Below are positions 5,850-63,366 of a stretch of 64,000 nucleotides of DNA, piece by piece; position 1 is the stretch's first letter, and each line of letters begins with the position of its first letter. The notes below the pieces were generated by a model. The model was given only the letters and a program-made list of their open reading frames with translations. It was not told the origin of the DNA and ran no database searches. The position numbers were made by a program, and so were the translations under genes. Source of the DNA: Streptomyces sp. NBC_01276 (lineage in GTDB: Bacteria > Actinomycetota > Actinomycetes > Streptomycetales > Streptomycetaceae); NCBI RefSeq assembly GCF_041435355.1, contig NZ_CP108442.1, forward strand, positions 1,674,001 to 1,738,000. Direction: 5' to 3'.

Positions 5850-6965
5850 TCAGTGCTTGCGCAGCCGCGAGCCGTAGTCCTCGGGCGGCAGGAACTTCGA
5901 CCAGCGCTCCGGGAACTCCGACGGCATCCCGGCGTCCTCGTCGTCCTCGGACTCCCCTTCGGCCAGGGCCCGCCAGGCGGCGGCCCGCGCCACCAGCTGG
6001 GCGGCCTCGGCCTCGCGGACGCGTTCGTTCGCCTCGCGCGCGGCGGCGGTGGCCACCGAGGGCCAGACCCGGTCGATGGCGGCGTTGACGGCCGCTCCGA
6101 CGAGCACGGCGAAGGCCGAGATGCCGATCCACAGCAGGATCGCGACGGGCGCGGCGAGGGAGCCGTAGATGGTGGGCCCCTCGACGGTGTTGGTGAGGTA
6201 GATCCGCAGCAGGAACGAGCCCAGGACCCACATCGCGAGGGCCACGAGCGCGCCCGGCACGTCCTCGATCCACGGCGAGCGGACGGGCACGGACACGTGG
6301 TACAGGGTGGTCAGGAAGGCGATCGAGAGCAGGGTGACCGTGGGCCAGTACAGGACCGCGATCACCTCCGTGCTCCAGGGCACCAGCCGTACCACCGCGT
6401 CGGGCCCGACGACCATCAGCGGCAGCACGATCGCGCCGATCAGCAGGGCGACGACGTAGAGGAGGAAGGCGAGCAGCCGGGTCTTGACGATGCCCCGCTG
6501 TCCGTCGAGCCCGTACATGACGGTGATGGTGTCGATGAAGACGTTGACGGCGCGCGAACCGGACCACAGGGCGAAGGCGAAGCCGAGGGAGATCAGGTCG
6601 GGGCGGCCGCGGCTGGTGACGTCGTCGAGCATGGGTTTGGCGATCTCGTTGACGCCCCGGTCGGACAGGACGGTGCCGACCGCGCGCAGGATGTTCTCCT
6701 CGATGCTCTGCACGGACTGGGTGTCCGTCCAGCCGTCGACGTAGCCGAGGAGGCCGAGGAGGCCGAGGAAGAGCGGGGGGAGGGAGAGCAGGGTGAAGAA
6801 GGCCGCCTCCGCCGCGAGCCCCAGGATCCGGTACTCGACGCACGAGTTGACGGTGTCCTTGAGCAGCAGCCAGGCCATCTTCCGCTTGGAGACGTTGCGA
6901 TAGAGGACGCGGGCCCGATGGAGCCGTCCCGGGATCCGCTCGGTTGTTTCTTTTGCTGGCTGCAC
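5850..6965 (-). CDS. YihY/BrkB-family inner membrane protein
   Basis: A 371-residue multi-pass membrane protein with the YihY/virulence factor BrkB pattern: an N-terminal 'EAAFFTLLSLPPLFLGLLGLLGY' helix, a central 'LWSGSRAVNVFIDTITVMYG' segment, and a 'LLWIGISAFAVLVGAAVNAAIDRVWP' helix near residue 290. Its molecular function is not known; it is not RNase BN as older annotations say. The charged C-terminal tail after about residue 310 is cytoplasmic. Its start lies only 17 bp from the divergent acyl-CoA dehydrogenase start, so the two promoters must overlap. Confidence 0.9.
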   Translation of the reverse strand: MQPAKETTERIPGRLHRARVLYRNVSKRKMAWLLLKDTVNSCVEYRILGLAAEAAFFTLLSLPPLFLGLLGLLGYVDGWTDTQSVQSIEENILRAVGTVLSDRGVNEIAKPMLDDVTSRGRPDLISLGFAFALWSGSRAVNVFIDTITVMYGLDGQRGIVKTRLLAFLLYVVALLIGAIVLPLMVVGPDAVVRLVPWSTEVIAVLYWPTVTLLSIAFLTTLYHVSVPVRSPWIEDVPGALVALAMWVLGSFLLRIYLTNTVEGPTIYGSLAAPVAILLWIGISAFAVLVGAAVNAAIDRVWPSVATAAAREANERVREAEAAQLVARAAAWRALAEGESEDDEDAGMPSEFPERWSKFLPPEDYGSRLRKH

Positions 6966-50732: not shown

Positions 50733-51428
50733 GTGACACCGACATCCGGCCGGGAGCCGCTGGTCATGGGGGACTTCTCGCGGCCCGACGGGGCCCGGCA
50801 CCCCCACCACCCGCGTACGTACGAGATCCGCGACCCGGACGAGATCCGGGCCGTCACCGCCGCCCGGCCGCACGCCGTCGAAGACCGGATCTTCGCCTGC
50901 ATGTGCGGGGAGCCCTGGGAGGACCCTCACCTCACCGAGGAGGCCGTCCGGCTGCGCGACCCGCTGTCCCCCGACGGGATCCCGGCCCGGCACCGCGCCC
51001 GGTGGGCCGGGGCGGCGCCCGGGGTCCTGCGGGAGTACGCCCGTGCGCTGGCCCGGGGCGAGGAGGACCCGGAGCGGCCGCGGAGCGTGCCGCTCGCGGT
51101 GGTGTTCGGCTGGCTGGGCGCCGTACGGGACGAACCCCGCGACGCGGCGTGGCTGCTGGCGGAGCGGGGCCCGGAGCGGCTGCTGGCCGGCGCACCCACG
51201 GCGGATCTGGCCTGGGCGGTGCGGGAGACGGACCGGGCGGGACTGGACGGGGCCGTTCGGTTCTTCGCGAGCGAGGAGTTCACCACCCGCCACCCCAAAC
51301 AGCGCCGCGTTGCGGACACTGCCCGGGACCTGCTGCTGCGGTACGCCCGCAGCCATCGCCCCGGCGACCTCGCGGTGCTGGAGCGGCGGCTGCTGCGTAC
51401 TCCGGAGGACCGGGTCAGACGGTCTTGA
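50733..51428 (+). CDS. Hypothetical protein, 231 residues
   Basis: I do not recognise a named family. The sequence is soluble and mostly helical, with a Cys-Met-Cys motif ('IFACMCGEPWEDPHLTEEAV') near residue 55 and a repeated-helix C-terminal half rich in Arg/Ala/Leu. A TAGCAT hexamer ends six bases before the GTG, so the transcript may be leaderless; an in-frame ATG at 50766 is an alternative start. The 3' end overlaps the convergent phospholipase gene by 14 bp. Confidence 0.65.
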   Translation: MTPTSGREPLVMGDFSRPDGARHPHHPRTYEIRDPDEIRAVTAARPHAVEDRIFACMCGEPWEDPHLTEEAVRLRDPLSPDGIPARHRARWAGAAPGVLREYARALARGEEDPERPRSVPLAVVFGWLGAVRDEPRDAAWLLAERGPERLLAGAPTADLAWAVRETDRAGLDGAVRFFASEEFTTRHPKQRRVADTARDLLLRYARSHRPGDLAVLERRLLRTPEDRVRRS

Positions 51429-53475
51429 TCGCCGGGTCGGAGACACCCGGGGCGCCCGTTTCCACGTGGCCGGCGAAGCGGCGCAGGAAGGTCGCGTCGG
51501 TGTCGGAGACGACGCCGACGTCGTACCAGCGGCCCGTCGCGCGCAGGTCGACGGTGGTGGAGACGGTGGCGCCGGGGTTGACCTTGAAGGTCTGGGGGGC
51601 GCCGTCGTAGGCGTTGGTCACGGTGAGGTTGACCGCCGCGGTGCCCCCGTTGGTCAGGGTGAGGGCGAGGTTGCCGGCGGCGTCCACGTGGCGGGCCGTG
51701 ACCTCGGGGCCGGCCTTCTTCGCCGGGCCCTTCCAGGTGCGCAGGAAGCCGTTGGGGCCCCAGACCGTGAGGTCGATCTTGTTACCGGTGGAGCTGCTGG
51801 TGCTCCAGGTGTCGGAGAGGGTCTTGCCCGCCTCGACCGTGTAGGGCCAGGGGCCGTCCGTACGGTTGCCCGAGGTGCTGTGGAAGTGGGCGCCGAGGGA
51901 GGGGCCGGAGGAGAAGGTCAGGGTGAACTTGCCCGTGGACACAGTGGCCTTGCCGTCCACGTACGGGCTGTAGCCGAGTGCGCGGGTCGGCTTGGAGCCG
52001 GCCTCCTGCTTCGGCAGGGTGCCCGTCGCCGGCGGGACCGGGTGGTAGGACGGGTGGGCGTTGTGGTCCGGCGGTACGTAGCCGGCCGTGGACGGGAGCG
52101 CCGCCGGGGAGGCGTCCGCCCGGCTGAAGTCGAACGCCGAGGTCAGGTCACCGCAGACCGCGCGGCGCCACGGCGAGATGTTGGGCTCCTGCACCCCGAA
52201 GCGCTTCTCCATGAAGCGGATCACCGAGGTGTGGTCGAAGGTCTCGGAGCAGACGTAGCCGCCCTTGCTCCACGGGGAGACGACGATCATCGGGACCCGG
52301 GGGCCGAGCCCGTAGGGTCCGGCCGCGTAGCCGGCGCTCCCGGCGTAGAGGTCGCGGGTGACGTCGGCCGTGGACAGGCCCCAGGCCGAGGACGCCGGCG
52401 GGTACGGCGGCACGACGTGGTCGAAGAAGCCGTCGTTCTCGTCGTAGGTGATGAAGAAGGCCGTCTTCGCCCATACCGCCGGATTGGCGGTCAGCGCGTC
52501 CAGGACCTGGGAGATGTACCAGGCGCCGAAGTTGACCGGCCAGTTCGGGTGCTCGCTGAAGGCCTCGGGCGCGGCGATCCAGGAGACCTGGGGCAGGGTG
52601 CCGCCCACGACGTCGGCGCGCAGCCTGTCGAAGTAGCCCTCGCCCGCCTTGGCGTTGGTACCCGTACGCGCCTTCTCGTACAGGGCGCTGCCCGGCTGGG
52701 CGTTGCGGTAGCTGTTGAAGTAGAGGAGGGAGTTGTCGCCGTAGTTGCCGCGGAAGGCGTCGCCGATCCATCCCCAGCCGCCGGCCGCGTTCAGGCCGTC
52801 GCCCACGTCCTGGTAGATCTTCCAGGAGACCCCGGCCGCCTCCAGGCGCTCGGGGTACGTCTTCCAGCCGTAGCCCGCTTCCTGGTTGCCGAGGACCGGT
52901 CCGCCGCCGGTGCCGTCGTTGCCCGTGTGCCCCGTCCACATGTAGTAGCGGTTGGGGTCGGTGGCGCCGATGAAGGAGCAGTGGTAGGCGTCGCAGACCG
53001 TGAAGGCGTCGGCGAGGGCGTAGTGGAACGGGATGTCGTTCCGGGTCATGTACGCCATGGTCGTGGCCGTCTTGGCCGGGACCCACTTGTCGTACTTGCC
53101 GCTGTTGTACGCCTGGTGTCCGCCGGCCCAGTCGTGGTTGAGGCCCTCGACGAACTGCATGCCCAGGTCGTTGACCTGCGGGTTGAAGGGGAGGATGTCC
53201 TTCGTGCCGTTGGACTGGTAGAAGACCGACTTGCCGTTGTCCTGGAGGACGGGCCGCGGGTCGCCGAAGCCGCGGACGCCCTTCATCGAGCCGAAGTACT
53301 GGTCGAAGGACCGGTTCTCCTGCATCAGCACGACGATGTGCTCGATGTCCTGGATGGTTCCGGTGGTGCCCTGCGCGGGGATGGCGGCGGCCCGCGCGAT
53401 GCTCTCGTTGAGCATCGTGGCGGCGGCGGTTCCGCCCGCGATCTGGAGGAACCGGCGTCGGTTGAGTTCAGCCAT
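51415..53475 (-). CDS. Tat-exported phospholipase C (phosphocholine-specific type)
   Basis: A 686-residue phosphoesterase of the acid phosphatase/PLC-C family. A twin-arginine signal 'NRRRFLQIAGG' starts at residue 5. The metal and catalytic region is 'IEHIVVLMQENRSFDQYFGS', with 'DHVVPP' and 'DENDGFFDH' later. Two C-terminal beta domains (about 490-680) are usual for PLC-C. The secreted enzyme would hydrolyse phosphatidylcholine or sphingomyelin, often under phosphate control. An 11-bp repeat array lies 135-185 bp upstream, but I see no clear PHO box. ATG 53475. Confidence 0.9.
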   Translation of the reverse strand: MAELNRRRFLQIAGGTAAATMLNESIARAAAIPAQGTTGTIQDIEHIVVLMQENRSFDQYFGSMKGVRGFGDPRPVLQDNGKSVFYQSNGTKDILPFNPQVNDLGMQFVEGLNHDWAGGHQAYNSGKYDKWVPAKTATTMAYMTRNDIPFHYALADAFTVCDAYHCSFIGATDPNRYYMWTGHTGNDGTGGGPVLGNQEAGYGWKTYPERLEAAGVSWKIYQDVGDGLNAAGGWGWIGDAFRGNYGDNSLLYFNSYRNAQPGSALYEKARTGTNAKAGEGYFDRLRADVVGGTLPQVSWIAAPEAFSEHPNWPVNFGAWYISQVLDALTANPAVWAKTAFFITYDENDGFFDHVVPPYPPASSAWGLSTADVTRDLYAGSAGYAAGPYGLGPRVPMIVVSPWSKGGYVCSETFDHTSVIRFMEKRFGVQEPNISPWRRAVCGDLTSAFDFSRADASPAALPSTAGYVPPDHNAHPSYHPVPPATGTLPKQEAGSKPTRALGYSPYVDGKATVSTGKFTLTFSSGPSLGAHFHSTSGNRTDGPWPYTVEAGKTLSDTWSTSSSTGNKIDLTVWGPNGFLRTWKGPAKKAGPEVTARHVDAAGNLALTLTNGGTAAVNLTVTNAYDGAPQTFKVNPGATVSTTVDLRATGRWYDVGVVSDTDATFLRRFAGHVETGAPGVSDPAIKTV

Positions 53476-53864
53476 GGGTGACGACCTCTGGGGGTGAGGG
53501 GAGGGGAGTCGAGGGGCGCCCCAAGGACAGCGGCCCCGGGGTACCGCACGGAGATCCCCGGCTGACGCGGGGCGGTACAGCGGGCGAACGGAAAACCCCG
53601 CGCAACGCCGCGCGGTGGCCGCGCGGTGGCTGCGCGGTGGCGCTGCGGTGGCTGCGCGGAAAGCCTGCCGCGCGTGCCGTTCGTCTGGTGGAATGACCTC
53701 CTCGACACTGCACGGGGGGCGCAGAGCGTATGGCGGGGACCGAGTACGGCCGTTCCGCCGGTCCGTCGTGCGCCGCGCCGCCGGCACCGGGGCCCGGGCC
53801 GGGAGTGGCACGGTACGGGGAACCACGGGCCGCGCAACAGACCCGGGAACCACAGGAGTTCGCG
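53476..53864. other. Intergenic region between phospholipase C and GAP1-like genes
   Basis: About 390 bp separate two divergent genes. I see no gene here apart from a short ORF at its right end. The notable content is an 11-bp repeat array at 53610-53659; the rest is GC-rich with no promoter hexamers that can be assigned confidently. Confidence 0.55.
53610..53659. repeat. 11-bp periodic repeat array
   Basis: GCGCGGTGGC plus one variable base recurs at 53610, 53621 and 53632, then as a variant at 53643 and a partial copy at 53654. The period of 11 bp places all copies on one DNA face. It lies in the 427 bp between the divergent phospholipase C and GAP1-like genes. The core does not look like the GTTCA element of PHO boxes. 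Confidence 0.65.
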
Positions 53865-53906
53865 ATGTCGGGTGCGCCCGCGGTCCGGGCGGGGGCGGGC
53901 GCGTGA
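53865..53906 (+). CDS. Possible 13-residue upstream ORF
   Basis: An ATG six bases after AGGAG opens a 13-codon ORF (MSGAPAVRAGAGA) whose TGA overlaps the GTG of the GAP1-like gene in a GTGA junction. The main gene itself lacks a good ribosome site, so translation may reach it by coupling from this ORF. It might equally be the remnant of a longer upstream gene. Confidence 0.4.
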   Translation: MSGAPAVRAGAGA

Positions 53907-56029
53907 ACCTTCCGCAGCTCCACTACGGCTGGGCCCCGCCCGGACCCGACGGCTCCGGGACGCGCTTCACGGCGGTCACCGACGGCGTTCCGACGGCCCT
54001 GTTGCGCGAGGCGGAGCGGCTCGTGGCGTACGAGGCGCCGGAGCCGGGCGGGGCCGTTCCGGAGGCGCTGAGCCTGAGCCTGCTCTCCGACGGCAGCCGG
54101 CTGCTGGCCCGCTCGGCGTACACCGGCGGCGACGGGACGGGCTTCCACGCGCACGCCGTGCACCTGCCGCAGCGCGCCGGTTCCGGCCCGGTCCGCGGGG
54201 CCCTGCCGATCACCTCCTGGGGGTCGCCGCAGTGGGCGGCGCGGACCCCGCCCGGCGGACCGCCGCCGCCGCTCGGCGCCGTGCCCGTCCCGGGGCGGCA
54301 CGACGGCGCCGCGCTGGCGGAGTTCGTGGCCGCGCGGGAGGCGTGGCTGGCCCCGTTCTTCGCCGACGTGCGACGGCTCGTGGAGGAGCCGGGCGCGCCG
54401 CGGATCGTGCTGGTGGAGCCGGACAGCGCGGCCGTGGCCCGCTGGGTCATGCTCGCGTGCAGCGTGCTGCCGCACCAGCGCGGGCAGTGGCTGACCTTCA
54501 CCACGTACACCGCCCGGCCGGGGCTCGCCCCGCAGGGCCTCGTGGGCGTCCTGTCCGGGGAGGGGACGGCCGCCGCCCTGGCCGCCCTGGAGGAGGGGTG
54601 CCGGATCCACGAGCCGGGGCGCGGGCCCGCGCCGGCGGCCGGCGGGGCCGCCGGGGACGTCTTCGACGTCTGGGCGGGGACGGCGGCGCGGATCTGGCTG
54701 GCGCGGCGGCCGGAGCTGTTCGCGCAGGTGCGGCAGCTGCCCGGGGGACCGTACGAGGCCGGCCCGCTGGCCGCGCTCGCGCTCGGGGCCGGGATCCGGC
54801 TGGACGCGGCGGGCCGGGCCGCGGCCGAGGCGTGGACGGCCGCGCACCCGGACCCGTCTCCGGCCCGGCTGCGGGTGGCGCTCACCGACCCGGACCGGGA
54901 ACCGGACGCGCTGGCCGGGCTCCTGCGGGAGGCCGCGCGGCAGGGAACGGACACCACCGGGGAGCTGCCCGAGGTGGCGCGCAGGGTGGCGTTCGCGCTG
55001 TTCACCGATCCGGAGCGGGCGTACGGGGAGGAGACGCGGGCCGGGCTCGACGAGCTGCCGGTCCTGCGGGCCCTCGTACTCGACCGGCTGGACGCGCTCG
55101 CGGCGGGCGATCCGGCCGCCGGGAGGGCGCTGTTCGCGCGGACGGGGCTGCGGCTGGGGGCGGCGGAGGCCCTGCCGCACCTGCGGATGTGCGCGGCGGT
55201 GGAGGCGGTCGTACGGGAGGCCCCGGACCGGCCCGTGGCGCTGGACTCGCTGCTGCGGGTCTCCGGGGTCTCCCCGTACGCGGAGCCGCTGGTCCTGCGG
55301 ACCGCGGTGCGGCTCGTGTGGGGCGGGCGCCGGCCCGGCCCGGACGAGGCCGGGCTGGTCCTGGCCACCATGGGAGAGGCGGTCCACCACGCCGCCGGAA
55401 CCTGGGACCTCCTCGCCCCGGCGGCCTCCCCCGCCCCGGACCTCCCGGTCCCCTCCCTGGCGGCCCGGGCGGCTGTGGACGCGGACCCGGCCGACGGCCG
55501 GAACGGGCCCGGCCCCGCCGCCCCGCGCTCGGCGGCGGACGGGACGGCTGACGGGACGGCGGATCAGGCGCCGGGCCGGGCTCCGGACGGTGTGCGGGCG
55601 CGTACGGCCGGCCCGGACTCCGGCCGTGCGGGCGTCGCCGCGCGACTGCTCGGCGAGGAGCGGGCGGAGGGGGCCGTACGGGTGCTGTTCGAGAGCGAGG
55701 ACGCCGCGTTGCTGGCCGCCTACCGGGAGGCGGCGCGCGGCGCGGAGGTGCGGGAGCGGCTGCGGGGTTCGCCGCGCTACCTCGCGGACTGCTTCGCCGT
55801 CTGGTCCGCCCACCCGCAGGCCGGGCCGCTGTGGCGGCAGGCCCGTACCGATCTGCTGGAGGAGGTGCTCAGGCCGGTCGTACGGGAACTGCCGTCCGAG
55901 CACCTCGCGGAGGCCGAGCGGGAGCTGGCCCGGCTCGGCCGCAGCCGGGCGGAGGAGTTCCGGGCCTGGCTGCGTCCGGGGCCGGGGGCCCGGCTGCGGG
56001 GGCTGTTCAGCCGTCGATCGGCCGGGTGA
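53903..56029 (+). CDS. GTPase-associated protein 1 (GAP1)-related protein
   Basis: A 708-residue protein. Its N-terminus ('LPQLHYGWAPPGPDGSGTRF', 'TAVTDGVPTALLREAERLVAYEAP') follows the GAP1-N pattern: a Gln-Leu-x-Tyr start, then a 'GF/RF-x-A-x-x-x-G' step. The middle includes 'RQWLTFTTYT'-like (here 'GQWLTFTTYTARPGLAPQGL') and helical repeats. Such proteins were described with TRAFAC GTPases in predicted NTP-dependent conflict systems. No GTPase gene adjoins here, so it may work with a distant partner. There is no membrane segment. It converges on the two-gene unit at 56037-57940, eight bases between stops. Confidence 0.7.
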   Translation: MNLPQLHYGWAPPGPDGSGTRFTAVTDGVPTALLREAERLVAYEAPEPGGAVPEALSLSLLSDGSRLLARSAYTGGDGTGFHAHAVHLPQRAGSGPVRGALPITSWGSPQWAARTPPGGPPPPLGAVPVPGRHDGAALAEFVAAREAWLAPFFADVRRLVEEPGAPRIVLVEPDSAAVARWVMLACSVLPHQRGQWLTFTTYTARPGLAPQGLVGVLSGEGTAAALAALEEGCRIHEPGRGPAPAAGGAAGDVFDVWAGTAARIWLARRPELFAQVRQLPGGPYEAGPLAALALGAGIRLDAAGRAAAEAWTAAHPDPSPARLRVALTDPDREPDALAGLLREAARQGTDTTGELPEVARRVAFALFTDPERAYGEETRAGLDELPVLRALVLDRLDALAAGDPAAGRALFARTGLRLGAAEALPHLRMCAAVEAVVREAPDRPVALDSLLRVSGVSPYAEPLVLRTAVRLVWGGRRPGPDEAGLVLATMGEAVHHAAGTWDLLAPAASPAPDLPVPSLAARAAVDADPADGRNGPGPAAPRSAADGTADGTADQAPGRAPDGVRARTAGPDSGRAGVAARLLGEERAEGAVRVLFESEDAALLAAYREAARGAEVRERLRGSPRYLADCFAVWSAHPQAGPLWRQARTDLLEEVLRPVVRELPSEHLAEAERELARLGRSRAEEFRAWLRPGPGARLRGLFSRRSAG

Positions 56030-56036
56030 CGGCCCC

Positions 56037-56372
56037 TCAGCCGCCGAGCAGCGCGGTGATCTCCCGGGCCAGGGCCAGGGCCCCGCTGCCCGCGCCCAGC
56101 CCCACCGTGATGGTTTGCAGGCAGCGGCGGATCAGCCCCGGCTCGGGGGCGCGGCGTTCCTCCCCGGCCCGTTCCAGTTCGCCGTGCAGGGTCCGGGCCG
56201 CGTCGACGCGGTCGCCGGCCGCGCCCTCGTCGCGGAGCCACCGGGCGAGTTCCGCGGCCAGGCGCAGGGTGCGGGCGGGGTCGTCCTGGTGCTGCGGCCC
56301 GATGTTGACCACACCGTGGTCGCCGTAGTTGCCGGGGCCTTCGACGTTCCCGTGGAAGTGGTAGGTGCCCAT
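56037..56372 (-). CDS. Small protein with N-terminal Gly/Asn/His motif
   Basis: A 111-residue protein. Residues 4-24 read 'YHFHGNVEGPGNYGDHGVVN' then Ile, a near copy of the C-terminal motif of the membrane protein encoded just upstream. After a short linker comes an amphipathic helical domain ('LRLAAELARWLRDEG', 'ARTLHGELERA') and a hydrophobic small-residue tail ('ITVGLGAGSGALALAREITA'). I do not recognise the domain as a named family. It starts 35 bp after the upstream stop with AGAGGAG before the ATG, so both are one operon. A homotypic contact with the partner through the shared motif is the natural inference. Confidence 0.7.
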   Translation of the reverse strand: MGTYHFHGNVEGPGNYGDHGVVNIGPQHQDDPARTLRLAAELARWLRDEGAAGDRVDAARTLHGELERAGEERRAPEPGLIRRCLQTITVGLGAGSGALALAREITALLGG

Positions 56373-56407
56373 GGGATCACTCCTCTGCGGCGGGCGGCGG
56401 GAGGGGT

Positions 56408-57940
56408 TCACGGACCGGCCGGCGCGGGGGACGGGGACGGGGACGGACCGCCGGGTGCCTGGCCCGGTCCCTGCCCCTGGGCCGTACCGGTTCCGGGGAG
56501 GTTGACGGTGCCGTGGCCGCCGAAGTTGAAGCCCTGGCCGGTGATGGTCCCGTGGAAGGTGTAGCTGTGATGGTTGATGACCTGCTGCGCCTGCTCGAAG
56601 GAGGCGGTGTCGATGTGGTGGGCCTTCAGGAACTGCTCGGTCGCCGTGAGGACGCCCTGCCGCAGCCTCTGGAGGAAGTCCACGGCGTCGTTGGTGTCCG
56701 AGAACTCCATCAGCCTCAGGCTGACCGCCGCCCGCGCCCGGATGCTGCCGTCGGCGCCGTAGTCGAACTCCTCGTGCCGCTTCCCGATGGCCCACCGGTC
56801 CCGCCACAGCCGCCAGCGGCGCAGCGCCCGCCCCCGGCCCCGGCGCCACAGCCGGGCGGGCACCTTGAACAGGGCGGGAAGGAACTCCCCGGTGGCGAGG
56901 CGCCACAGGGACCACCAGTGGCCGAAGGGGTCCTGCCGCAGCCTGCGCACGTCGAGGAACTCGTCCCGTAGCGGCGGCACCACCTGGGTGGTCACCTCCC
57001 AGCTCAGCCGGGGGTGCTGGACGCGGGCGCGCAGGTGCATGGAGACGATCACCCGGCCGCCCTGCCCGACCCCCTCCAGGCAGAGGTAGGTACGCATCCC
57101 GAGGCCCGGGCGGGTCAGTCCGGCCTCCACCATCCCCTCCGGGATGGACGTGCGGGGCGCGCTCAGCCGGTCGGGCAGCAGTTCCTTTCCTGCGTGCGGG
57201 GTCATGGCGCCGCGCACGTACAGCCGGTTGCGGGCCCGGAGGCCTTCGAGGCCCGCGATGTTCCCCATCTCCCGGGCCACGAAGGCGTGCAGGTCGACGA
57301 CGTCGAAGCCGACGATGGTCAGTTCGCCGCCGCCGGCGGGGTCCTTGGCGGGGGTGCTGATGTCGATGGGCTGCCAGACCCGGTCCTCCACCATCTCGCC
57401 GCTGCCGACGAAGGGGTTCGTCCGCTCGGCGGGCTCGTGGTACGGCAGGACGTTGGTGCGGGCCTGCTCGTGCAGCCGGGATTCCAGCTCCGGGTCGAGC
57501 GGCGGCGCGAGCCGGTCGGGTGGCGGACCGTTCACGTCGATCACCCGGTAGACCATCGTCCGGGCCCGGTGCTCGGTGACCAGGACCAGCGTCCAGGCGG
57601 CGGCGAGCACGCCCAGGACGCCGAGCAGCTCCGGGCCGACGGGCTGGTCGAGCCTGGCCCGGTGGACCAGCAGGGCCGCCGTGACCGCCCAGGCCGTGAG
57701 CAGCACGGCCAGCAGGCCGTCGCGGAGGTTCGCGCGGCGTACCGCGACCCGCGCGTGCCGGGCCACCGCCACGAGGTCGACCCCGAGCGAGGGGCCGAGC
57801 GCCGTCAGCCGGTCCTCGGTGAGTTCGTCCGCGGTCGCGCGGGCGAACTGCTCGTTGCGGTGCACGGCCGCGCTCAGCCAGCGGTCCGTCCACTCCTCGC
57901 CCTGCTGGATGAGCCCGGGTAACCCACGATCTACCGCCAT
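56408..57940 (-). CDS. Two-helix membrane protein with C-terminal Gly/Asn/His motif
   Basis: A 510-residue protein with an N-terminal helical region, two adjacent membrane helices at about 75-93 and 102-122, and a large soluble region (about 130-455) of no family I can name. Residues 460-481 read 'YTFHGTITGQGFNFGGHGTV' then Asn-Leu, closely matching the N-terminus of the next gene's product. A Gly/Pro/Ser-rich disordered tail follows. Both termini are probably cytoplasmic. ATG 57940 follows GGGGAGGA. The layout, a membrane part plus an exposed C-terminal motif, suggests a signalling or effector protein recruited through that motif. Confidence 0.7.
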   Translation of the reverse strand: MAVDRGLPGLIQQGEEWTDRWLSAAVHRNEQFARATADELTEDRLTALGPSLGVDLVAVARHARVAVRRANLRDGLLAVLLTAWAVTAALLVHRARLDQPVGPELLGVLGVLAAAWTLVLVTEHRARTMVYRVIDVNGPPPDRLAPPLDPELESRLHEQARTNVLPYHEPAERTNPFVGSGEMVEDRVWQPIDISTPAKDPAGGGELTIVGFDVVDLHAFVAREMGNIAGLEGLRARNRLYVRGAMTPHAGKELLPDRLSAPRTSIPEGMVEAGLTRPGLGMRTYLCLEGVGQGGRVIVSMHLRARVQHPRLSWEVTTQVVPPLRDEFLDVRRLRQDPFGHWWSLWRLATGEFLPALFKVPARLWRRGRGRALRRWRLWRDRWAIGKRHEEFDYGADGSIRARAAVSLRLMEFSDTNDAVDFLQRLRQGVLTATEQFLKAHHIDTASFEQAQQVINHHSYTFHGTITGQGFNFGGHGTVNLPGTGTAQGQGPGQAPGGPSPSPSPAPAGP

Positions 57941-57988
57941 TTCGTCCTCCCCCGTGGTCGTCGGTCCACGATACGAACAACCACCCTC

Positions 57989-58010
57989 GTCCGTAACGGT
58001 ATTGACGGAC
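57989..58010. promoter_or_regulatory. Inverted repeat between the motif-pair operon and the ketosynthase operon
   Basis: GTCCGT and ACGGAC flank ten AT-richer bases in the 183-bp gap between divergent operons. On the minus strand a TTACGG/TATCGT pair with 17-bp spacing lies close to it and could be the promoter of the membrane-protein gene. For the ketosynthase operon, a TTGAG/CTCAG repeat sits at about 58073-58090. All are candidates only. Confidence 0.35.
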
Positions 58011-58123
58011 AGTCATTTCGTGCCGTCCGAGGCGGAGGGCGGACGTCCTACTCAGCGGGCACCACGTGTACTTGAGCATCCGTACTCAGGCCGGGGGCCG
58101 GTCCGGCCCGTCATCGTGAGGGC

Positions 58124-59146
58124 ATGTTCATTCAGCAGCCTGACCCGCGGCCGCGCGCCGGGATAACCGCCGTCGGCGCCCTGTTGCCCGAGGACGTCCT
58201 GTCCTCCGACGACCTCCAGCGGGAGGTGACCCGGCGCAGTGGCATCGCGCTCCCGCCGAGGACGTTGACCCAGGCGACCGGGATCCTGACGCGGCGGATC
58301 GCGGCCGAGGGGGTGTTCGCCTCCACGCTCGCCGTGGGCGCGGCCCGCCGGGCGCTGGACTCCGCCGGACTCACCCCGCTCGACGTGGACCTGCTGGTCT
58401 TCGCCTCCGCCTCCCGGGACATGGTCGAGCCGGCCACCGCGCACATCGTGCAGGCCGCCCTCGGGTCCCGGGCGCACGCCGTGGACGTCACCAACGCCTG
58501 CAACAGCTTCGTCAACGGCATCGACCTCGCCCGGAGCATGGTCCTGGCCGGGCGGGCGCGCCGGGCGCTGGTGGTCACCGGGGAGACCCCGAGCCGTGCG
58601 GTGCGCACCGACCCGGCCGACTTCGCCGAGTTCCGCAGCGGGTTCGCCGGTTACACCTTCGGTGACGCGGGGGCGGCCGTGGTGGTGGAGGCGGTGGAAC
58701 GCGGCGGGATCCTGGACGTGGACACCGAGACGCACTCGGAGCACTGGGAGGTCGGAGGGATCCCGGGCGGCGGGTCGCGGCACCCGCGCGGGGACGCGTA
58801 CACGTACTTCCGGGGGGACGGGCGGGAGCTGCGCGGGGTCTTCGAGAAGGTGGGCACGGCGGTCATCGACCGCACGCTGCACCGGACGGGGCTGGACTGG
58901 GACGGCTTCGCGAAGGTGCTGGTGCATCAGGTGACGGTGCCGTACCTGGAGCGGTTCGCGGAGCTGACCGGGGTGCCCGGGGAGAAGCTGGTGGTGACGG
59001 TGCCGGAGCTGGGCAACGTGGCCAGCGCGAGCATCGGGGTGCAGCTGGACCGGGTCTTCGGCGGCCTCGCCGCCGGGGAGCGGGTGCTGTTCGTGGGCCT
59101 GGGGGGCGGCGTCAGCATCATGACGATGGTCTGGGAGAAGTCGTGA
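58124..59146 (+). CDS. Ketoacyl-ACP synthase III (KAS III/OleA-like)
   Basis: A 340-residue thiolase-fold condensing enzyme. The Cys-His-Asn triad is Cys126 ('DVTNACNSFVNG'), His268 ('VLVHQVTVPY') and Asn298 ('ELGNVASASIG'). It could decarboxylatively extend an acyl starter (FabH-like) or join two acyl chains (OleA-like); the ligase and epimerase encoded downstream favour the latter, but the OleA-specific Glu is not checked. It is the first of six genes joined by 1-4-bp overlaps, so it is the head of an operon that runs off the window. Confidence 0.85.
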   Translation: MFIQQPDPRPRAGITAVGALLPEDVLSSDDLQREVTRRSGIALPPRTLTQATGILTRRIAAEGVFASTLAVGAARRALDSAGLTPLDVDLLVFASASRDMVEPATAHIVQAALGSRAHAVDVTNACNSFVNGIDLARSMVLAGRARRALVVTGETPSRAVRTDPADFAEFRSGFAGYTFGDAGAAVVVEAVERGGILDVDTETHSEHWEVGGIPGGGSRHPRGDAYTYFRGDGRELRGVFEKVGTAVIDRTLHRTGLDWDGFAKVLVHQVTVPYLERFAELTGVPGEKLVVTVPELGNVASASIGVQLDRVFGGLAAGERVLFVGLGGGVSIMTMVWEKS

Positions 59147-59886
59147 GCGCGCCGATGTGGGTGGTGGTGCCCGCGTACGAGGAGGAGGCACGGCTCGCCT
59201 CGACGCTGGCGGCGCTGGCGGCGCAGCGGGACCGGGAGTTCACCCTGCTGGTGGTCGACAACGCCTCCACGGACGGTACGGCCGCCATCGCGCGGGAGTT
59301 CGCGCGGCGGGCGCCGTTCCCGGTGGAGGTGATAGAGGAGCCGCAGAAGGGGGTCGGCTCGGCCGTGGACACCGGGTTCCGGTACGCGATCGCGCGCGGC
59401 GCGACCCTGCTGGCCCGGACGGACGCCGACTGCCTGCCCCGGCCCGGCTGGACGGGCGCCGCGCGGGCGGCGCTGCTGGAGCGCCCGGGGCTGGTGTGCG
59501 GGCGGGTCACGGCGCGCCGCGACGAGCACGGGCCGCTGGGCCGGGCCGGTTTCGCGGGTCTGGTCGCGGTGGCCGCGCTGTTCGGGCGGCTGCGGCCGCA
59601 GCACTCCCGGCGGGGCGGGTTCAAGGCGCCGTACCGGATGCACGCGGGGAACAACATGGCCATCACCGCGGACCTGTACCTGGCCGTCGGCGGGATGCCC
59701 CGGCGGCCCTCGCCCACGGACCGGCTCTTCCTGAACGCGGTGCGCCGCCACACCGACCGGATCACCCGCTGCCGGGGGATGGTCGTCGAGAACTCGACGC
59801 GCCGGCTGCGGGCGTACGGGCTCGCCGGGACCGCCCGCTGGTACCTCGACCAGGGCAGCGGCACGCACGGAACGGACCCGCGCTGA
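59143..59886 (+). CDS. Family 2 glycosyltransferase (copy A)
   Basis: A 247-residue GT-A enzyme. It begins 'WVVVPAYEEEARLASTLAAL' with 'VVDNASTDGTAAIAREFA', and the metal-binding D-x-D is 'RTDADC'. It is shorter than its relative at 61391 but about half identical by eye over the first 120 residues, so they look like duplicated paralogues. No transmembrane segment is strong. The GTG overlaps the ketosynthase stop (GTGA). The sugar donor and acceptor are unknown; acting on the lipid-like product of the operon is inference. Confidence 0.85.
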   Translation: MSAPMWVVVPAYEEEARLASTLAALAAQRDREFTLLVVDNASTDGTAAIAREFARRAPFPVEVIEEPQKGVGSAVDTGFRYAIARGATLLARTDADCLPRPGWTGAARAALLERPGLVCGRVTARRDEHGPLGRAGFAGLVAVAALFGRLRPQHSRRGGFKAPYRMHAGNNMAITADLYLAVGGMPRRPSPTDRLFLNAVRRHTDRITRCRGMVVENSTRRLRAYGLAGTARWYLDQGSGTHGTDPR

Positions 59887-61394
59887 TGCTGGACCGACTG
59901 GAGCACGCCCTGCGCGCCCGGCCCGAGCGGCCCGCCGTGCTGTCCGCTACCCGTACGGGAGCCACCCGGGTGAGCGCCACCCGCGGTGAACTCGTCGAGC
60001 TGGCGGACGCGTACGCCGCCGCCCTGCACGCGCGCGGGCTGCGGCCCGGGGACACCGTGGGGGTGGCGGTGCGGCCGGGACCGCGCGCGCTGGCGGTGCT
60101 GCTGGCGCTGTGGCGGCTGGGGCTGCGCGGGGCCGTGCTCGACCCGGGGGCCGGGGCCGAGGTGCTGCGGGCCCGCCTCGCGCTGGCCCGGCCGGCGCTG
60201 GTGCTCGCGGACGCCGCCGCGCAGGCGGTCGCCGGATGGGCCCGAACGCTGGCCCGGCGGGCCCGGCTCGAACTGCCGGAGCTGGCCGGGCTGGGGCCGG
60301 TGGCCACGGTCGGCCCCCGGCTGCCGGGCTGTGCGCCCGCGCTGGAGACGGGGGCGCCGCGCACCGGCGTGCCGGTGTACGGGGGCACCGACGCCGCCGA
60401 CGCGGTGATCGTCTTCACCTCCGGGACCACCTCGCGGCCCCGGGCCGTGGTGCACAGCCGGGCCGGGCTGGCCGCCGGGATGGAGACGGTGGCGTCCCTG
60501 TTCACGGCGGACCCGGCGGCGGGTGGGCACGGCGCGGAACCGGTGCTGGGCGGCACCTTCTTCGTGCTGGTGCCCTCCCTGACGCGCGGGGCGCCCGTCG
60601 CCCTGCCGGCCCGCTCCCCCGCCGTGCTGGCCCGCCAGCTGCGCCGGCTGCGGCCCCGGGACACGTATCTGACCCCGCCGCAGCTGCGGGACGCGCTGGG
60701 GGCGGGCGCCCGGTTCGGCGGCCGGGTGTGGACGGGGTCGGCTCCGGCGAGCGCCGCGCTGCTGGACCGGGTCCGGACGGCGGGCGCGGACGAGGCCTGG
60801 GGGGTGTACGCGCTGACCGAGCTGTTCCCGGCGGCCGCGGTGGAGTCCCGGGAGAAGGCGGCCTTCGCCGGGGCGGGCGACCTGGTCGGCGCCCCGCTGC
60901 CCGGGGTCCGGGCGGTGGCCGACGGGGACGGGCAGCTGCTGCTGGCCGGGCCCGCGGCCCGGGACCGCTACCTCGGGGAGGAGCCCGACCCGTGGGTGCG
61001 TACGGGCGACCGGGGGCGGCTGGACGGAGCCGGCCGGATCGTGCTGGAGGGCCGGTGCAAGGACATGGTGCTGCGCAGGGCGGAGAACATCTACCCGGGC
61101 CTGTACGAGCCGGGGCTGCACGTGCCCGGGGTCGAGCTGGGCGTGCTCGTCGGGGTCCCGGCGGGCGACGGGGACGAGCGGCTGGTCGCGGTGGTGCAGC
61201 CGCAGCGCGGGATCCCCGAACCGGCCCTGCGGGCCGCGCTGTCGGATCCGCTGCGCCGGATGGGCACGGCCCGGCCGGACGCGCTGCTGTTCGCGCGGAT
61301 CCCGCTGTCGGGGCGTTCGCGCAAGCCCGACCGGGCGGCGGCGTCCGAGCTCGCGGCGGGACTCCTCGCGGCGGGGCGCGGGGGCGGGGCATGA
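59886..61394 (+). CDS. Adenylate-forming acyl ligase (OleC-like candidate)
   Basis: A 502-residue ANL-superfamily enzyme. Motif A3 is 'FTSGTTSRPR' (177-186), with Arg where Lys is usual. A5 is 'YALTE' (308-312), A7 'TGDRG' (373-377), A8 'GRCKDMVLRR' (389-398), and the C-terminal catalytic Lys480 lies in 'GRSRKPDR'. It may activate a fatty or beta-hydroxy acid as AMP ester. OleC members make beta-lactones instead; the sequence alone does not separate these. ATG 59886 overlaps the preceding stop by one base (TGATG). Confidence 0.85.
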   Translation: MLDRLEHALRARPERPAVLSATRTGATRVSATRGELVELADAYAAALHARGLRPGDTVGVAVRPGPRALAVLLALWRLGLRGAVLDPGAGAEVLRARLALARPALVLADAAAQAVAGWARTLARRARLELPELAGLGPVATVGPRLPGCAPALETGAPRTGVPVYGGTDAADAVIVFTSGTTSRPRAVVHSRAGLAAGMETVASLFTADPAAGGHGAEPVLGGTFFVLVPSLTRGAPVALPARSPAVLARQLRRLRPRDTYLTPPQLRDALGAGARFGGRVWTGSAPASAALLDRVRTAGADEAWGVYALTELFPAAAVESREKAAFAGAGDLVGAPLPGVRAVADGDGQLLLAGPAARDRYLGEEPDPWVRTGDRGRLDGAGRIVLEGRCKDMVLRRAENIYPGLYEPGLHVPGVELGVLVGVPAGDGDERLVAVVQPQRGIPEPALRAALSDPLRRMGTARPDALLFARIPLSGRSRKPDRAAASELAAGLLAAGRGGGA

Positions 61395-62239
61395 GCGGAG
61401 CCCGCCGGCGGGGCGGCGCGGCGCACGGGTCGGGCGGGCACGAGTGGGGCGGCCACGCGGCACCGGGGCGGGAGCCGGGCACGCCCGACCTGTGGGTGGT
61501 CGTGCCCGCCTACAACGAGGCCGCCTCGCTGCCGGGCACGCTGGCCGCGCTCGCCGCGCAGCGGGACAGGGCGTTCGCGCTGGTGGTGGTCGACAACGCC
61601 TCCACCGACACGACGGCCGAGGCGGTACGGGAGTTCGCGCGCTCGGCGCCCTTCCCCGTCGAGCTGGTCACCGAGCCCGAGCCGGGGGCCGGGACCGCCG
61701 CCGACACCGGATTCCGGTACGCGGTACGGGCCGGGGCGCGCCTGTTGCTGCGTACGGACGCGGACTGTCTGCCGGCCCGGGACTGGACGGCCGTCGCCCG
61801 GACGGAGTTCGGGCGCGGCGCCGAGCTGCTGTGCGGGCGGAGCGTGCCGCGCCCCGACGAGCGGCCCACCTTCGCCGAGGCGCGGTTGCTGCCCGCGCTG
61901 GTCCGGCTGTCCGCGCTGTACGGGCGCTACCGGGCCGCGCACCGCGGTACCCGGTTCCGGGCCCCGTACGTGCTGTGCCACGGCCACAACCTCGGCATCA
62001 CCGCCGCGCTGTACGTGCGCTGCGGCGGGGCCCCGCGGGAGCGGCTGGAGGAGGGGTCGGAGGACGTCACCCTGCTCAACCGGGCGCGGGAGCACAGCGG
62101 GCGCGTGGTGCGCGTCGAGCACCTGGTGGTGCGGAGCAGCCTGCGACGGCTGCGTTCCTGGGGTGCCCGGCGCACCCTGCTCTGGTACTGGGACCGGCGC
62201 TACCGGCCCGTCGACACGGAAGAGGTCCACGTCCGGTGA
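61391..62239 (+). CDS. Family 2 glycosyltransferase (copy B)
   Basis: A 282-residue GT-A enzyme beginning, after a 33-residue Gly/Arg-rich head, 'WVVVPAYNEAASLPGTLAAL' with 'VVDNASTDTTAEAVREFA' and the D-x-D in 'RTDADC'. It is strongly similar to copy A (59143), including 'DTGFRYA' and the 'F.APY' segment. The C-terminus 'RRLRSWGARRTLLWYWDRRY' differs. Having two GT2 genes around the ligase suggests sequential transfers or a diverged duplicate. It is coupled to its neighbours by ATGA and GTGA. Confidence 0.85.
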   Translation: MSGARRRGGAAHGSGGHEWGGHAAPGREPGTPDLWVVVPAYNEAASLPGTLAALAAQRDRAFALVVVDNASTDTTAEAVREFARSAPFPVELVTEPEPGAGTAADTGFRYAVRAGARLLLRTDADCLPARDWTAVARTEFGRGAELLCGRSVPRPDERPTFAEARLLPALVRLSALYGRYRAAHRGTRFRAPYVLCHGHNLGITAALYVRCGGAPRERLEEGSEDVTLLNRAREHSGRVVRVEHLVVRSSLRRLRSWGARRTLLWYWDRRYRPVDTEEVHVR

Positions 62240-63366
62240 GTGCTGTGAAGGCCGACGCCCACGCCCACGCCTACGCCTACGCCCACGCCAAGGCCCGGCG
62301 CCGGGACCGCAAGGTCTACCTGCGCGGCCATCCCCTGCTGTTCGGGCTGCTCGCGGCCACGCGCGGGCGGGCGGTGCGCCGGCTCGGCGGGACGCTGCTG
62401 GTGCACGACGCGGACGCGTACCGGGAGACGCTGACCCGGCTGCCGCTGGACCGGACGGCGGCCGGCACCACGGGCGGCGCCGCGCGCTCGGCCCTGGGCG
62501 GCGGGGCCGGGGGCGTGCTGTTCGACCAGGAGGGGGGCGGGCACCGGGCGGACCGGCGGGCCCTCGCGGAGCGGCTCGGCACGGCCGGGGTGGCGCGGCT
62601 GCGCCGGGAGTGGGAGCCGTCGCTGGTACGGGGGCTCGCGCCGCTGTCCCGGGGCGGCGAGGTGGACGTGGTGGCGCTGGCGCGGGAGCTGGCCGGGGCG
62701 GTGGTGTGCGGGCTGCTGGAGGTGCGGGCCGAGCCGCGCGTGCTCGCGGAGGCCGCCGCGCGGGCCGCGGCGGCGTCGGTGCGCAGCCATCTGCCGGGTC
62801 CGCGGCGGCCCGGGGCGCGGGCCGCCGCGGAGCGGGCGGCCCGTCGGCTGCGGCTGCTGCTGGGCCGCGGGGAGGAGGCGCTGCCCGCGATGGTGGCGGT
62901 GGCGGCGGTGAACACCACGGTGGCGGCGCTGCCGCGGGCGGTCGCCTGGTGCGCGGACGCGGGGCTGTGGGAGCAGGCCGCCGACGCGGAGCTGCGGCCG
63001 CGGCTGGTGGAGGAGCTGCTGCGGGTGACGGCGGCCTCGCCGGTGCTGCCCCGGGTCGCGGCGGCGGCGGGGACGGTCGGGGGCTGCCCGGTACGGGCCG
63101 GGGACCGCCTCGTCCTGGTGGCGCGGCACGCGGCGGGGGCGCACCGGCGGGATCCGGACGGGCGGGACCCGGCCGGGCCGGGGGTGGCGCGGCTGGTGTT
63201 CGGGGCGGGGTCGCACGCCTGTCCCGGGGCCCGGCTGGCGGAGGTGCTGCTGGGTGACGTACTGGAGGCGCTGGCCCCGTACCGGCCGGTGGTGACCGGG
63301 GCCCGGGTGGACCGGCGGGCGGCGCTGCCGGGGTGGCGTTCGCTGACGGTGGGGGCGGGGGCGTGA
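62236..63366 (+). CDS. Cytochrome P450, short and unusual
   Basis: A 376-residue P450. The heme-binding loop is 'FGAGSHACPGARLAE' with Cys329, the E-x-x-R motif is Glu260-Leu-Leu-Arg263, and a C-helix His103-x3-Arg107 is seen. The I-helix segment 'VAVAAVNTTVAALP' has Asn in place of the usual acidic residue before Thr-Thr, so oxygen activation may be altered. The first 20 residues are a low-complexity His/Ala/Tyr stretch from a hexamer repeat. It could hydroxylate or desaturate the operon product. GTG 62236 overlaps the preceding stop. Confidence 0.85.
   Translation: MSAVKADAHAHAYAYAHAKARRRDRKVYLRGHPLLFGLLAATRGRAVRRLGGTLLVHDADAYRETLTRLPLDRTAAGTTGGAARSALGGGAGGVLFDQEGGGHRADRRALAERLGTAGVARLRREWEPSLVRGLAPLSRGGEVDVVALARELAGAVVCGLLEVRAEPRVLAEAAARAAAASVRSHLPGPRRPGARAAAERAARRLRLLLGRGEEALPAMVAVAAVNTTVAALPRAVAWCADAGLWEQAADAELRPRLVEELLRVTAASPVLPRVAAAAGTVGGCPVRAGDRLVLVARHAAGAHRRDPDGRDPAGPGVARLVFGAGSHACPGARLAEVLLGDVLEALAPYRPVVTGARVDRRAALPGWRSLTVGAGA

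Follow-up and report, generated by a model that had tools for sequence, protein, structure and literature searches.

Bacterial amyloid signaling sequences (BASS; Dyrka et al. 2020, as related in PMC7889193, PMC8086366, PMC9815663, and PMC12261475) are motifs common to the proteins of adjacent genes, located at the N-terminus of the NLR and the C-terminus of the BELL protein (PMC7889193). A homotypic motif of about 20 residues likewise joins receptor to effector in HET-S/NWD2 and in the RHIM necrosome (PMC7889193, PMC8086366), the receptor-side r0 motif of HET-s carries fewer charged residues (PMC8086366), and motif repetition has been reported for both bacterial and fungal amyloid motifs (PMC9815663). 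Whether bacteria have NLR-independent signaling amyloids is a question asked in a 2021 review of amyloid signaling (PMC7889193). Related arrangements are the EACC1 two-gene systems, membrane units of multicellular actinobacteria with a small protein bearing a glycine-patched hydrophobic helix (Kaur et al. 2020, PMC7159879), the GAP1-N2 ‘conflict’ systems with their kinase-PP2C-vWA theme (PMC7159879, section 29), and the EADs, homotypic domains encoded in adjacent genes and closer to each other than to other copies (PMC7159879, PMC8195603).

We analyzed a stretch of 64,000 nucleotides of Streptomyces sp. NBC_01276 (the window) that contains two adjacent genes, here called BIG and SMALL, with matching tails. 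We give a probability of roughly 60% to the reading that their products form an NLR-independent homotypic signaling pair, the tails of which stack in an amyloid-like manner to switch on the partner. The family, which occurs in many Streptomyces, is a concrete candidate for an NLR-independent signaling amyloid. The features are as follows.

56408..57940, minus strand: BIG gene, membrane protein of 510 aa (ORF list)
57569..57721, minus strand: two hydrophobic helices of BIG, residues ~74–124 (hydropathy and structure model)
56498..56563, minus strand: C-terminal motif of BIG, residues 460–481 (motif model and local alignment)
56037..56372, minus strand: SMALL gene, 111 aa (ORF list)
56301..56363, minus strand: N-terminal motif of SMALL, residues 4–24 (motif model and local alignment)
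53615..56029, plus strand: GAP1 gene with GAP1-N2, GAP1-M, and GAP1-C (Pfam PF20013, PF20014, and PF20052, above cut-off)

SMALL starts 35 bp past the stop codon of BIG on the same strand, and the convergent GAP1 gene, which directly abuts SMALL, belongs to the context and lies outside the pair. A first-pass annotation of this DNA had pointed to a motif shared by BIG (YTFHGTITGQGFNFGGHGTVNL) and SMALL (YHFHGNVEGPGNYGDHGVVNI), and this proved correct. The motif comprises about 22 residues, is rich in Gly and Asn, and lies C-terminally in BIG and N-terminally in the helical SMALL. The two copies aligned locally with a score of 68, whereas 3000 shuffles of both motif stretches averaged 33.3 and never scored above 57 (fitted tail P 5e-13). 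When the whole SMALL sequence was shuffled 3000 times, the mean was 34.7 and the highest score 70, meaning that at least one shuffle exceeded the observed score. A motif model built from the window and its relatives, with both C- and N-side copies, recognized the BIG and SMALL sites in the whole of the own genome at E 1e-13 and 7e-10, and the third and last match was at chance level (E 2.3). Searching the same genome with the single SMALL sequence up to E 1 did not return the BIG tail, and no second BIG was found in its 9.37 Mb (search E≤1e-3; profile E≤0.1).

BIG consists of two N-terminal hydrophobic helices, a large folded domain that extends to residue ~456, and a disordered C-tail with the motif. 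Its earlier description as a two-helix membrane protein fits the maxima of the hydropathy profile around residues 75 and 105 and the long helices 56–96 and 102–134 of the AlphaFold2 model, which has a mean pLDDT of 83.7 and is confident except for residues 1–13 and the tail, values being below 50 in residues 463–510 of the latter. No Pfam match up to E 1 was obtained for BIG, and no secure structural relative of its folded part was found. The homologues numbered 148 up to E 1e-3, and the named ones among the 120 matches listed were from Streptomyces. Public records name some of the homologues ‘aromatic ring-opening dioxygenase LigA’, which none of our results support. In SMALL, the motif is followed by a four-helix region (helices 30–48, 53–71, 78–89, and 97–110; model pLDDT 69.5, with most of residues 1–29 below 50) that ends in a Gly-rich stretch of moderate hydrophobicity; the best 19-residue hydropathy of the protein is 1.38. 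In single-chain models, both motifs were predicted to be disordered tails, and neither lay inside a globular sheet.

The BIG/partner loci resemble BASS, as these are described in the sources above, in having a short motif common to adjacent or overlapping genes, one copy being N-terminal and the other C-terminal, in their occurrence in actinobacteria with many unrelated motif families, in the occasional repetition of the motif, and in having TIR among the partner domains. The suggestion of a classical BASS system was nevertheless not supported, as no NLR was found and the motif ends are reversed, the membrane protein carrying the motif C-terminally and the partner N-terminally. Neither window protein contained an NB-ARC or NACHT domain (Pfam, up to E 1), and no NLR turned up in nine distant BIG proteins that were scanned, the domains seen there, if any, being FHA or a weak zinc ribbon; the FHA domain is fused to BIG in L068 and L097, and the weak zinc-ribbon matches were in L069 and L107. 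The Pfam, NCBIfam, and PADLOC model sets gave no match named BASS for the window proteins. Another difference from BASS is the presence of kinase, PP2C, vWA, and GTPase genes beside many BIG/SMALL relatives. EADs, for their part, are domains, whereas the module found here is a tail of ~25 residues that is predicted to be disordered when alone.

The core of the RHIM is [VI]-Q-[VI]-G. The first-pass annotation had likened the V-V-N-I-G ending of the motif to this tetrad, and the ending is indeed present in the SMALL protein of the window but is not conserved among the relatives: the commonest states of the second tetrad position are E, N, or a gap in SMALL (43/54) and N, S, or a gap in BIG (38/54), not Q. 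As the two window proteins also gave no Pfam RHIM match up to E 1, membership of the RHIM group was not supported. BIG/SMALL differs from the HET-S and RHIM systems in having no conserved [VI]QxG core, no Pfam RHIM match, and no NLR found.

A genome scan yielded at least 59 BIG loci. BIG is directly followed in 58 of these 59 by an ORF of ~100–130 aa with a related motif near its start; in the five most distant of these (L068–L072), the partner was assigned by position and motif, the SMALL model scoring poorly, and the SMALL motif match of L058 is weak. BIG matched at E≤1e-3 in 59 of 199 genomes of the genus, the own genome included, with many of the matches being to distant families or to parts. 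One close relative, from another species (L014), has kept BIG (position 6488 onward); when its genome was searched with the SMALL-homologue model, no SMALL was found, and the sole match up to E 1 was the C-tail of BIG itself (E 0.004). Among 20 distant loci (L077–L096), the BIG tails differ widely, e.g. GLYAGGDVTLQGSAVGVGG, GIIATQGAKVESSSVATGEKS, GVIQQGGTSIVGNQAIGTGANA, and FGVMNGGTMTGPVQATPFS, and in every case a similar motif recurs close to the start of the protein encoded next (20/20 with a partner, L095 only partially). A matched partner was also present in 19 of a further 21 loci (L108–L128); no partner was detectable downstream of BIG in L121, and BIG of L116 is a fragment and was left out, so that 100 of 101 loci were scored.

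For every pairing, the downstream stretch was read in its three forward frames and the best score was taken, with no partner picked by eye. The results showed that BIG tails scored 74.8 against their own downstream gene and 41.3 against non-cognate ones (means of 100 loci; permutation z 27.8, for loci that are not independent, being mostly from Streptomyces and some possibly from the same species), and z was 14.0 in the 55 orthologue-group loci and 17.8 in the 45 distant loci. The cognate gene ranked first in only 25 of the 100 loci, because close relatives have motifs in common, and within the first five in 69; tail–partner scores were low in L058 and L085. Mutually distinct pairs occur within one genome, three in G018 and two each in G133, G014, and G016. 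In G018, the cognate scores were 75, 83, and 76 as compared with 30–37 for non-cognate pairings, and the weakest contrast of this kind was that of L085 in G016 (43 vs. 31). Such natural sets of matched and mismatched motifs, some within a single genome, offer a route to the rules of motif specificity.

The distances between C-motifs were correlated with those between N-motifs when the bodies of both proteins were controlled for (partial Mantel r 0.56–0.59 with motifs cut independently of the partner, and 0.75–0.77 when the cognate alignment set the cuts), and none of 2000 permutations reached the observed value in any of four sets, one of which had been reduced to 36 loci according to BIG similarity. 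When the two motifs of 54 orthologous pairs were compared column by column, mutual information peaked at offset 0 (0.153, against an off-diagonal mean of -0.006, sd 0.071), and for 13 of 26 motif columns the maximum was the column's own counterpart in the partner; since the joint alignment favors offset 0, this same-column coupling is support short of proof. The matched homotypic pair in an operon-like unit that had been proposed for this locus was borne out, and the locus-wide scoring and the partial Mantel test show that the pair is retained among orthologues and that its two motifs diverge together. The annotation had itself named what would speak against its proposal, namely, a motif missing from orthologues or buried in globular sheets without paired conservation; conservation and paired co-divergence hold, and both copies are predicted to lie outside the folded domains. 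Homotypic contact between the tails is, by inference, well supported.

In seven distant loci (L108, L118, L119, L124, L125, L126, and L127), a TIR protein with the motif in front stands in place of the small helical protein. All seven matched PF10137 (CAP12-PCTIR_TIR; 90.5–96.8 bits against a cut-off of 24.7, E 1e-25 to 1e-27) and are of the CAP12/Pycsar type. The L108 protein, the only TIR partner scanned with PADLOC, also matched the candidate PDC-S35 (E 5e-15). The sensor/effector logic that had been suggested for the pair is borne out by these motif-bearing TIR partners, and one set of TIR proteins gains a candidate sensor in the BIG family. Six other partners (L109, L112, L114, L117, L120, and L122) carry two copies of the motif as read by eye, and these face a BIG with a single copy. 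Some of the partner motifs of L079, L081–L083, and L087 are of the SAVASGKNAQA type, which by eye we take to resemble the repeat of YadA-type beta-roll heads; if so, a beta-solenoid rung would suit stacking.

The helical partners appear to be related to each other across families. We found 21 SMALL proteins, including that of the window, those listed with a name being from Streptomyces, and the SMALL profile matched DUF5955-type partners of distant families over the helical part (95.5%, E 1.5e-8). The window SMALL had no match to DUF5955 (PF19380) in Pfam, and the L068 partner scored 41.3 bits with this model (cut-off 27.1). SMALL resembles the EACC1 systems in the features named above; its score against EACC1 (PF19953) was 18.1 bits, below the curated cut-off of 23.6, EACC1 matches at E≤1 occurred in 11 of 43 SMALL relatives (best E 0.0027), and comparison of the SMALL profile with four EACC1 stretches gave a probability of 25.9%. 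The same genome holds four EACC1 places above the cut-off. In the EACC1 systems, the EACC1 gene is the 5' one and precedes a caspase-fused gene. We did not assign SMALL to EACC1, as it scores below the cut-off, is the 3' gene of its unit, and is followed in the window by the convergent GAP1 gene and no caspase gene.

Similar motifs in neighboring genes could be a functionless by-product of recent duplication or gene conversion. The genes are adjacent, the window pair has the same codon at 11 of 12 sites as compared with 8.8 expected, and the same-codon rate exceeds 85% in 15 of 96 loci. However, over the 96 of 100 loci with a score of at least 45, the same codon was used at 956 of 1377 identical degenerate residues (0.694, against 0.670 expected, in a test the power of which is reduced by GC-rich codon bias), so the motif match is maintained at the protein level. 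As the pairing also persists across families whose motifs differ, we regard such an origin as very improbable. A common third ligand, e.g. a glycan or a protein, bound by both motifs and driving their co-divergence as it changes is compatible with the co-divergence statistics, and nothing direct points to it. The same-position coupling of the two copies, the restriction of the motif to one adjacent pair in the window genome, and the several distinct pairs per genome are all simpler under direct pairing, and we consider this explanation improbable.

The whole of the co-divergence evidence fits any homotypic contact, including one in which the motif is a docking tag that forms a small defined complex (e.g. 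two-rung beta) without polymerization, by which BIG would anchor SMALL or a TIR protein at the membrane. The charge of the motifs bears on this. Charged residues make up 0.052 of the BIG-side motifs and 0.117 of the partner-side motifs. Of 96 loci, 74 have the lower fraction on the BIG side and 13 on the partner side, and 9 are tied; the asymmetry is strong in orthologues (50 vs. 2) and less marked among the distant loci (24 vs. 11). The N-motif, about 12% charged, is above what an amyloid core might be expected to have, and the lower charge of the BIG side is a likeness to the receptor side of HET-s (PMC8086366). Against simple docking stand the double motifs of six partners, the Gly/Asn fraction of ~0.35, the predicted disorder of the tails, and the TIR partners, all of which resemble features reported for known amyloid signaling pairs. 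Overall, docking without polymerization seems unlikely to us, although not far-fetched, and by analogy with the known pairs an amyloid form of the tails has moderate support.

In the amyloid-like signaling that we favor, BIG would sit in the membrane with its C-tail in the cytoplasm, a topology that we infer, and SMALL would be a soluble or membrane-seeking helical protein with the same motif at its N-terminus. Upon activation or clustering of BIG, its tails may bind those of the partner and nucleate their stacking, most likely as parallel in-register beta-arches, and the stacked tails would gather and switch on the partner. The first-pass annotation had the small protein recruit the membrane protein; the reverse direction, with BIG signaling to its partner, appears more likely. 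Since relatives have either a DUF5955-like helical protein or a TIR protein as the partner, the system probably triggers defense or cell death, a role assigned by association only. Together, the matched tails and TIR-linked relatives suggest a bacterial alarm wired by private self-matching tags.

At least one of four convergent neighbor genes lies beside the pair in 51 of 60 loci (kinase 44, PP2C 42, vWA 45, and DO-GTPase2 48; genes called by codon composition and Pfam names taken from one representative each), and the four-gene cluster is absent in nine of the 60, the window among these. GAP1 relatives were present in 10 of 12 genomes checked and in nine abutted or lay within the locus of the pair, with contigs matched by position only. 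Of these genes only GAP1 remains in the window, abutting SMALL, and a DO-GTPase2 query found no match in the window genome; we infer that the four intervening genes were lost. PP2C, vWA, BIG, SMALL, and kinase genes lie on one strand in two Saccharopolyspora loci (L069 by Pfam, L070 by sequence clustering), as do PP2C, vWA, BIG, and SMALL in Streptomyces L098. Most of the very distant BIG families are without this context, and the kinase, PP2C, vWA, and GTPase models gave no match in wider stretches around L097, L099–L105, L107, and L108 (1/11 positive, L098). A PP2C-family phosphatase gene (PF13672) was seen at L099:4585-5325, ~3 kb from a distant BIG/partner pair. The neighbors are identical in kind to those of the GAP1-N2/DO-GTPase kinase theme, whereas the BIG/SMALL pair and its matched tails are absent from the passages on that theme in PMC7159879. 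The pair may provide wiring for the GAP1-N2 conflict systems, and in many relatives the kinase-PP2C-vWA-DO-GTPase2-GAP1 neighbors may set the threshold of the trigger.

More broadly, and at somewhat less than even odds, actinobacteria may possess homotypic signalosomes, probably amyloid and independent of NLRs, that form a large class still without a name. The C-tails of a membrane receptor family would serve as addresses that diversify and are private to a single effector encoded next door (a DUF5955-like helical protein or a TIR protein), in many lineages under kinase-PP2C-vWA-DO-GTPase-GAP1 control, and with several distinct channels per cell.

Some further observations were made around the pair. 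An open frame of 680 codons (56037-58079), in frame with SMALL, overlaps BIG, and its long part looks like a shadow ORF of GC-rich DNA rather than a gene. A likely biosynthetic cluster lies next door at 58124-63366, with a KAS III gene (PF08541/PF08545) and, by eye on the plus strand, two glycosyltransferase-like ORFs, one acyl-CoA ligase-like ORF, and one P450-like ORF. Beyond GAP1, the minus strand at 51415-53622 encodes a phosphoesterase-family phospholipase C (PF04185, PF05506).
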